This document shows positions 28,135 through 50,425 of a stretch of DNA of 64,000 bases, one piece after another. Numbering within the stretch: position 1 is the stretch's first letter; each line of letters opens with the position of its first letter. Source of the DNA: Sulfodiicoccus acidiphilus (GTDB lineage Archaea; Thermoproteota; Thermoprotei_A; Sulfolobales; Sulfolobaceae). The notes under the pieces are model-generated. The model ran no database searches and was not told where the DNA came from. It was given only the letters and a program-made list of their open reading frames with translations. Made by a program: the position numbers and the translations under genes. The stretch is taken from positions 744,001-808,000 of the forward strand of contig NZ_AP018553.1 in the NCBI RefSeq assembly GCF_003967175.1, given 5' to 3'.

Positions 28135-28316
28135 ATGTCGGGGAGGTTGGAGGCCTCAAGTTTAGGTTCATCACCACAGAACCTCTGCGCACTTCTCGTG
28201 GTTCTTATGGCAAATGTCATTGAGATTCACCTTTCCATCAACAATTGTGATTTCCTCCCGTACCACCTTGTCGATCAGTTTGGAAGATGTGCCAGTGAGT
28301 TTCTTCGACTTCCTTA
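28135..28316 (-). other. Possible gene fragment next to copy A
   Basis: A short frame on the minus strand reads SSKLIDKVVREEITIVDGKV and DICHKNHEKCAEVL and looks coding in character, but it has no start of its own and runs out of the solo element into unique sequence. It may be the tail of a gene cut by the element. I do not recognise it. Confidence 0.3.
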
Positions 28317-28619
28317 GTGAACTACCCCGCCCTCGCGGACGGGGCATCTCCCGGTGGGGATTTCCTGCTTCCCGGAGGAACCTAGATCCCCTTCCGTAGC
28401 GGAGGTTCAGTGGAACCTTTCTGTGAACAGTACGGAAGGGGGATCGCGGAGGGTTTCCTCTCCACGGGCGTGAGTTCCCCCAGTCCAGAGGGTGCGACCC
28501 AGCTCTCACAGTAGAGGTCGTAGAAATAGTATTTTGACAACCGTAAAGAGGTTTACATAAGGAAGCTGTCCGTCCCCACGGAAGGGGACTTCCGCCCCCT
28601 CAATCTCCTTTAAGTTAAA
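28317..28619 (-). mobile_element. Solo IS605-like element with omega-RNA-like core (copy A)
   Basis: Minus strand order: TTTAAC (28614-28619), left-end hairpin (GGGGGCGGAAGTCCCC side at 28575-28600), promoter-like box CTTTACGG (28543-28551), then from about 28519 a 200-base RNA-like segment, then right-end hairpin CCCGTCCGCGAGGGCGGGG (28325-28343) and GTAGTTCAC at the right border. Inside, GATCCCCTTCCGTA (28386-28399) pairs perfectly with TACGGAAGGGGGATC (28431-28445), enclosing a hairpin AGGTTC/GAACCT. The same layout with changed but still pairing bases is seen in copies B and C. No tnpA or tnpB. Confidence 0.65.
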
Positions 28620-49061: not shown

Positions 49062-49287
49062 CTTTTAGGTTCTTCTTCCACGGATATCCTTAGATTTTCA
49101 TATAACGTATAATATTGAGTGTTAAACGTTATTGCTTTCGTTCATTTTCTTTTACAGATGACTTCTCGTCGGAGGTGAGCGATATTCCTAAGGCGATAGA
49201 TGTGTGAAAAAGAGTGAACGTTACTTACAGAGGTTTGGAAAAAGACGTAGGGTCTCTTTTTCGTTGACCGATGTTCCTTGTACAACT
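49062..49287. other. Intergenic after tRNA-His
   Basis: AT-rich, no gene seen. It runs into the block of solo elements. Confidence 0.4.
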
Positions 49288-49580
49288 GTGAACTACCACG
49301 CCCTCACGGACGGGGCGTCCTAGCGGTGAGTCCCGCACCTCGGAGCGATATCGTCCCCGTCCGTAGCGGAGGTTCCGTGGAACCGTCCTGTGAACAGTAC
49401 GGGAGAGGGGTCACGGAGCGTTTGCCCTCCACGGGCGTAAGTTCCCACAGTTCCTAGGGTGCCCAGCCGTCACGGCCGAGGTCTGAGGATCGCTTTTCCT
49501 TACGTAAAAACCTTATCTATAGACGGGCTATCCGTCCTCACGGAAGGGCTCTTCCGCCCCTTAACCCCACTCAAGTTAAA
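49288..49580 (-). mobile_element. Solo IS605-like element with omega-RNA-like core (copy B)
   Basis: Same order as copy A on the minus strand: TTTAAC border (49575-49580), left-end hairpin (49525-49560), promoter-like box GGTTTTTAC (49504-49512), RNA-like core from about 49483, right-end hairpin (49299-49317) and GTAGTTCAC border. The main stem is formed here by CCCCGTCCGTA (49356-49366) with TACGGGAGAGGGG (49398-49410) and the inner hairpin by GGTTCC/GGAACC, different bases from copy A but still paired. No coding sequence. Confidence 0.65.
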
Positions 49581-49654
49581 CGCCCTCGAAAGATTCCTTC
49601 AACTATATTAGCGTTATAATTCGATCGAATAACGGGTCCAGGGAGAGTAGAGTA

Positions 49655-49978
49655 GTGAACTACCCCGCCCTCACGGACGGGCATCCCCACCTCGTGGTGG
49701 GGATTTCCTGCTTCCCGGAGGAACCTCGATCCCCCATACACCCACAGCGGAGGTTCCATCGAACGGAACCGTCCTGTAATGCCCCGTGTGGAAGAGGGGT
49801 CACGGAGGGTTTCCTCTCTACAGGCGTGAGTTCCCCCAGTCCCGAGGGTGCGACCCAGCTCTTACAGCCGAGGTCTAGGAATATTATAGTTTTCTGGTAT
49901 AAAAGGTTTCTATAAGGGGGCTATCCATCCCCTCCCTTACGGAAGGGGACTTTCGCCCCCTTAACCCCGTTAAGTTAA
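49655..49978 (-). mobile_element. Solo IS605-like element with omega-RNA-like core (copy C)
   Basis: Begins 75 bases after copy B, same orientation. Left border ATTAAC; left-end hairpin with GGGGG/CCCCC arms at 49916-49960; best promoter of the set, CCTTTTATA (49898-49906), 23 bases before the conserved GACCTCGGC (49867-49875); core of about 220 bases; extra perfect hairpin CCCCACC/GGTGGGG (49685-49702); right-end hairpin at 49664-49682; border GTAGTTCAC. The inner hairpin GGTTCC/GGAACC has a longer loop. No transposase gene. Confidence 0.65.
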
Positions 49979-50425
49979 TTTGCTTATAGAAGACGGACTG
50001 ATTACGGATTCCCCCGAGATCCTCGAGTCCCTTTGAGTGAAGAGTCTCTGAACAATCCACCTTTCCGACCGAGACGTTAGTCTCGTACCTATGACGAGAA
50101 CCACCCTGGAGGAGGAACCCTCAATTGTGAGAAGGAAGTTAGAAGGGGTTTGAGCTTCACAGGATTTCACAATATTTGAGATCGATCCTCCCCTTCGGCT
50201 TCACCGAAGTCTCTGGAAACGCTCAACTCTATTGACAGGGCGGTCTAGACTCATCGGACCGTTGACCATAGATGGGGAACGCACGCCCTCTACCCCACGT
50301 GGTCGGGGTGAGAGTTTACCCATCTAATGTGACTGTACTTTATTTCGACTTCAAAAACTTCCCTGGTTAAGGGAACTGTAGACAGAGGCAAAGGAATTTT
50401 GTCTCGTGGCTTGTTTCGTTTACAT
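49979..50425 (-). repeat. Noncoding stretch holding repeat G
   Basis: Contains at 50197-50225 the CTTCGGCTTCACCGAAG stem and following CTCTGGAAACG shared with 15262-15296, and an ACCCCACGTGG/CCACGT-type C/G hairpin at 50293-50312. It looks like a second kind of insertion-element right end, here on the minus strand. No gene. Confidence 0.4.

Follow-up and report, generated by a model that had tools for sequence, protein, structure and literature searches.

SMN1-type mini-transposons of Sulfodiicoccus acidiphilus as probable stand-alone TnpB guide-RNA genes of ISC1733 descent

Three short elements and their repeats in the genome

The window analyzed here, a stretch of 64,000 nucleotides from Sulfodiicoccus acidiphilus (contig NZ_AP018553.1, positions 744,001 to 808,000), has a G+C content of 49-53%, the published value for S. 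acidiphilus HS-1 being 51.15% (PMC6647314). It carries on its minus strand three short elements: copy A (28614-28317, 298 bp), copy B (49575-49288, 288 bp) and copy C (49974-49655, 320 bp). Their location and strand had been given correctly in a preliminary description of this DNA, and so had the left border (T/A)TTAAC. Each element is preceded by a putative target/TAM sequence, TTTAA at 28615-28619 for A, TTTAA at 49576-49580 for B and ATTAA at 49975-49979 for C, and all three terminate in GTAGTTCAC.

Copy C is a complete element, the first base of which is the C at 49974 and the last one the final base of TTCAC at 49655. It comprises a left-end hairpin (49911-49968) common to ISC1733-type elements, a TATA-like box CCTTTTATA (49906-49898) at the position of the ISC1733-type tnpA promoter and a predicted guide-RNA scaffold (49875-49655), which extends from the 5′ hairpin GACCTCGGCTGTAAGAGCTGGGTC, 23 bases after the box, to TTCAC. 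The right-end hairpin (49662-49682) corresponds to helix 10 of the structure described below, and the predicted guide TACTCTACTCTCCCTGGACC (49635-49654) follows directly after TTCAC. Copy B has diverged (70% identity to C) and contains a TATA-like box GGTTTTTAC (49504-49512), a scaffold predicted from homology to copy C (49288-49483) and the predicted guide AGTTGTACAAGGAACATCGG (49268-49287). Copy A belongs to the largest subfamily in the S. acidiphilus genome; its scaffold, from GACCTCTAC to TTCAC (28317-28519), is predicted from alignment and covariation, and its predicted guide is TAAGGAAGTCGAAGAAACTC (28297-28316). The TATA-like box that had been described for all three copies is clear in C and B and weak in A (CCTCTTTAC), and the motif GACCTCGGC is not conserved as it had been said to be, copy A having GACCTCTAC and other subfamilies varying at that box.

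A whole-genome search with copy C (E values 1e-170 to 1e-28) revealed at least 41 full or near-full copies and three short pieces in the single-contig genome of 2,353,189 bp, a lower bound with 40 of 131 candidates scored; the repeat status of A, B and C is far above the chance level. The aligned copies have sharp edges and unrelated flanks, with NTTAAC at the left edge in 35 of the 41. The 20-mer downstream of the element, wherever readable, differs from copy to copy, in agreement with the earlier proposal that every copy has a different guide. The genome copies (L001-L030 and L053-L063) are mosaics in which left/promoter parts, the two halves of an internal arm and the right ends are variously combined, a pattern indicating that recombination or gene conversion between copies is frequent.

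Identity with SMN1 and descent from ISC1733-type elements

Over 98% of its length copy C shares 89% identity with repeats in the Sulfolobus islandicus plasmids pHVE14 and pARN4, and its identity to a repeat in Acidianus tailed spindle virus is 90%. From their size, host and ISC1733 ends, we take the plasmid repeats to be the published element SMN1. SMN1 is described as an ISC1733-dependent MITE of 320 bp from S. islandicus, active in strain REN1H1 (PMC3718332, citing Berkner and Lipps 2007). Copy C and SMN1 are alike in sequence, in the 320 bp length, in their ends, in the lack of an open reading frame and in insertion after NTTAA without duplication, whereas the S. acidiphilus copies differ from SMN1 in comprising diverged subfamilies and in having no intact cognate transposase. 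Judged by sequence, copies A, B and C belong to this known MITE, present in this genome in more than 40 copies, an identity that the preliminary description had missed; the element is already known, and what is apparently new is the guide-RNA function considered here.

The limits of the element have been fixed with the help of empty sites. The joined flanks of the pARN4 copy run unbroken in pARN3 (97.7% identity) and in NC_012624 (600 of 600 bases) without target duplication, so the element starts after NTTAA and extends up to TTCAC, and for the pARN4 plasmid copy the presence of empty sites in near-identical DNA establishes that SMN1 is mobile. An empty site was also sought for B and C in relatives; the sequences there are strongly diverged, a tRNA dominates the matches, and the tRNA-linked regions do not contain such an element, which is less than proof of an empty site. 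Matches to the element are present in 21 of 31 Sulfolobaceae genomes, in part of them to the ends only. The copy in Acidianus tailed spindle virus (L123:1001-1314) is partly annotated as a hypothetical protein, and its presence in a virus genome means that viruses can serve as vehicles for the element and its guide. Outside Sulfolobales, Thermocladium modestius JCM 10088 has an SMN1-like element on a contig of 15 kb (L124:1571-1906), where it reflects either horizontal transfer or contamination.

The elements have the traits of non-autonomous IS200/IS605 derivatives, i.e. subterminal hairpins at both ends and insertion 3′ of a short fixed target without duplication. In the IS200/IS605 family the end hairpins serve single-strand transposition. 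Such a role for the ends, and the known mobilization of this MITE by ISC1733 (PMC3718332), favor the view that A, B and C are plain MITEs: their middle would be what is left of a decaying tnpB 3′ part and right end, the element would be kept for the sake of the ends recognized by TnpA, and a guide RNA would be neither produced nor employed. We consider this unlikely, and the features of the middle that bear on it are given below.

In other genomes the ISC1733-type elements encode TnpA and a TnpB of about 410 amino acids (Pfam Y1_Tnp, OrfB_IS605 and Cas12f1-like_TNB), and both ends of SMN1 match theirs at about 90%. The 3′ end of the ISC1733-type tnpB has the skeleton GGGACTGCCC..GCCTGTGGA.AGGAAACC-hairpin-GTTTCCT.GAAGCAGGAAATCC-hairpin-right-end hairpin-TTCAC, and the core common to ISC1733-type TnpB reRNA and SMN1 is GCCTGTGGA..GGAAACC..GGTTTCC..GAAGCAGGAAATCC. 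The link between the two is provided by L087 (G009:1806952-1807241), a compact solo element of 290 bp without tnpB, the last 134 bases of which match ISC1733-type tnpB 3′ ends from eight genomes (E values down to 4e-33) and the first 100 bases ISC1733-type left ends. Three units similar to L087 occur in genome G018, L140 among them. Elements L080 and L098 of genome G008 share with L140 the 5′ hairpin and the start of the reRNA found in L087, and both have in addition the enlarged arm of SMN1. These intermediates make the series from tnpB reRNA through L087 and L080 to SMN1 visible in sequence.

The middle of SMN1 hence descends from a tnpB reRNA, the homology to the tnpB 3′ end being direct for L087 and, for copies A to C, running via L080 and L098. 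Without the intermediates, the SMN1 middle aligns only weakly with tnpB reRNA, and a profile of the copies used on its own (nhmmer) matched only the ends of the S. acidiphilus tnpB elements. Through L087, the ISC1733-type elements supply an intact relative in which tnpB precedes the same RNA fold; the lack of such a relative had been named in the preliminary description as fatal to its reading. Its characterization of the copies as solo guide-RNA units without transposase has turned out right in anatomy and descent, on the strength of the L087 link, the intermediates and the TAM and guide borders.

The promoter region seems to have come from the same source. Behind the left end of ISC1733 comes GAAA..TTTTTA, with the tnpA ATG about 25 bases further on; the solo elements have the same left end and a TATA-like box, with the 5′ hairpin of the RNA at the distance of the tnpA ATG, as in copy C with its box at 49906-49898 and hairpin start at 49875. 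The simplest origin of the solo elements would be an internal deletion that placed the tnpA promoter before the reRNA, and a transcript would probably start at the 5′ hairpin. The fusion of a promoter region immediately before an RNA hairpin speaks against a mere remnant of tnpB, as does the preservation of the right border and the guide register in most of the copies.

RNA structure and the likely TnpB partner

The pHVE14 copy served as the source of a structure of ten helices, the pairs of which were then counted in 35 relatives, as RNAalifold applied to the 35-sequence alignment gave few pairs on account of gaps. In this set 86.5% of cells are paired as compared with 35-52% with slid partners, a fraction that taken alone is biased by the derivation of the structure from a single member. 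More weight attaches to the double changes: both sides have changed in 22 of 58 pairs versus 12.2 in shuffles, none of 500 shuffles reaching 22, with a covariation score of 0.135 versus 0.104. The compensatory changes fall mostly in helices 1, 5, 6, 7 and 9. At the family level the RNA structure is conserved by compensatory change, but in the S. acidiphilus genome it is relaxed. Of the folded middle segments claimed earlier, copy C as a single strand folds moderately better than shuffled sequence (z -2.1), and copy B does no better than shuffles (z -1.4), its fold being probably eroded. Searched at the gathering threshold, Rfam gave no family at these sites, and the reading as a known RNA family has been dropped. 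A remnant kept only for its ends would not be expected to acquire a covarying 5′ hairpin and an enlarged arm, or to retain compensatory changes across genomes in the internal helices H4-H7.

A reference for the predicted function is provided by the IS605-type TnpBs of S. islandicus REY15A, in which the reRNA overlaps the gene (PMC11043419). One of them, TnpB7, uses the TAM TTTAA, with NTTAA about equally good, requires an RNA of about 176 nt, takes as guide the bases directly after UUCAC and edits with its own reRNA transcribed from a separate plasmid (PMC11043419). The TAM TTTAA that the preliminary description gave for a Sulfolobus TnpB agrees with these data, and A, B and C have borders identical to the TAM and guide boundary of TnpB7. 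The reRNA of the ISC1733-type TnpBs (the TnpB1-8 group, TnpB7 included) resembles SMN1 in the right-end hairpin, the TTCAC end, the guide register and the TAM. The native reRNA overlaps the coding end of tnpB, whereas the solo RNA is non-coding, has a predicted promoter and a 5′ hairpin of its own and, in SMN1, carries an enlarged arm of about 80 bases. The absence of this extra arm from the tnpB reRNA makes binding of the SMN1 RNA by TnpB uncertain. Together, these features make it probable that A, B and C are ISC1733-derived, SMN1-type MITEs that form promoter-driven stand-alone TnpB guide-RNA genes. We infer, on good grounds, that SMN1 functions as a guide RNA; it would be transcribed, loaded into TnpB and used for cutting.

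The 5′ hairpin and the enlarged arm, both unlike native reRNA, and the high copy number would also suit some other structured RNA riding on the element, a regulator or a decoy that binds TnpB and blocks cutting, thereby protecting the host or the element. A decoy needs neither an exact TAM nor a guide boundary, and both have been kept, with NTTAA plus guide in each copy, which makes this explanation highly improbable.

The cognate enzymes are represented in S. acidiphilus by debris. An intact ISC1733-type tnpA is absent from the genome, in which tnpA fragments lie at 241015 and 372256 and an ISC1733-type tnpB remnant full of stops lies at 372838 (genome coordinates). A single intact Y1 tnpA is present in the genome, at 430984; it is 34% identical to the ISC1733-type and lies with a tnpB in the element L042/L051 (G000:C1:430774-433962); the right end of this element is a different one (..GGGCGGGGAGGAGGTCAG), of an IS605 subgroup unlike SMN1. 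The genome contains 44 matches to PF07282 (TnpB zinc-finger domain), which fall into several groups and include many fragments. Two complete IS1341-like TnpBs, L031 and L037, show 39-41% identity to ISC1733 TnpB, have related reRNA ends and retain the catalytic D, E and D motifs.

The copies themselves have partly lost their fold. The penultimate hairpin is kept in 4 of 40 S. acidiphilus copies versus 14 of 18 elsewhere, helix H4 is paired in 69% of cells versus 90% elsewhere, and the two halves of the distal arm combine independently of each other (Fisher p = 1), all of which looks like relaxed constraint. The reassorted arm halves and eroded helices in this genome count in favor of a plain MITE. 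With the cognate tnpA and tnpB fragmentary and the fold partly eroded, many copies may be relics or may use other TnpBs, and present function would need L031 or L037, or else has been lost. The reRNA of the L031/L037 type is devoid of the penultimate hairpin, the same one that is missing from 36 of the 40 local copies; as an alternative to relics, these copies might have adapted to TnpBs of this type.

Guides and a possible role in retention

Exact matches of TTAA plus 16 bases of guide were sought in IMG/VR, and the search yielded none for A, one for B and none for C. The single match to the guide of copy B, on one contig, has not been accepted as a target, and this search gave no convincing target for the guides of the three copies. 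The suggestion that they are domesticated regulators finds no support in these data, as all flanks and guides differ. Guides domesticated for fixed chromosomal targets, regulating in the manner of TldR, i.e. of nuclease-dead TnpBs with conserved guide and target, would moreover be at odds with the D/E/D motifs retained by the TnpBs of this genome that have related reRNA, and we give this option almost no credence.

In our preferred reading, that of stand-alone guide-RNA genes, the history would have begun with an internal deletion in an ISC1733-type tnpA-tnpB element, by which the left end and the tnpA promoter region were fused to the reRNA of the tnpB 3′ end and the right end. The resulting SMN1-type MITE would specify a solo RNA with its own starting hairpin, the TnpB reRNA core, the TTCAC end and the next flanking bases as guide, the extra arm having presumably been added to the core later, in SMN1. 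The TnpA of a full-size relative would mobilize the element in trans and insert it 3′ of NTTAA. The TnpB of a relative would load the solo RNA and cut the empty site, NTTAA plus guide, and it is proposed that repair of this cut from the filled copy restores the element. Selfish DNA thus seems to survive by furnishing its own address label to the enzymes of its full-size relatives. A bolder and rather doubtful version makes SMN1 elements guide-only homing parasites, dependent on TnpA for movement and on TnpB for retention, and carrying apart from their ends only a TnpB guide RNA and the tnpA promoter that they captured; having outlived the cognate insertion sequence in S. acidiphilus they would have re-partnered with IS1341-like TnpBs, more than 30 different guides converting empty alleles during DNA exchange.

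Comparable arrangements are known elsewhere. Stand-alone IscB omega-RNAs have reportedly been found in Ktedonobacter, where, as in SMN1, the guide RNA lies apart from the nuclease in many copies with differing guides; they are bacterial and of the IscB/Cas9 lineage, while SMN1 relates to TnpB and is a MITE of archaea that has captured the promoter of a transposase gene. The PATEs of Haloquadratum and its relatives are IS200/IS605-derived MITEs, and they resemble SMN1 as non-autonomous derivatives with hairpin ends; to our knowledge no guide RNA has been demonstrated in them. SMN1 itself has apparently not been described as a guide-RNA gene in the openly readable literature.

MITEs are commonly regarded as deletion debris that needs a transposase alone. 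If the SMN1 guide RNA is functional, TnpB-guided retention would be a selective force sufficient to favor RNA genes that come with no protein, and the element would offer a direct test of the role of TnpB in transposon maintenance, for which S. islandicus, having SMN1 and ISC1733 as well as an active TnpB7, is a ready genetic system. Natural trans-acting guides with a 5′ hairpin may also make better stand-alone scaffolds, and other lineages can be searched for similar units by the signature of this arrangement.

Immediately upstream of copy C, the region 50120-50420 has been considered as a second kind of solo unit and rejected, as this 300-base stretch does not recur as a unit in the genome. 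Its part at 50120-50240 is, on the minus strand, a decayed right end that belongs to a different IS1341-like TnpB group (GGTGAAGCC..GAAATCCTGTGAAGCTCAAACCCC; compare L035, L036 and L038).
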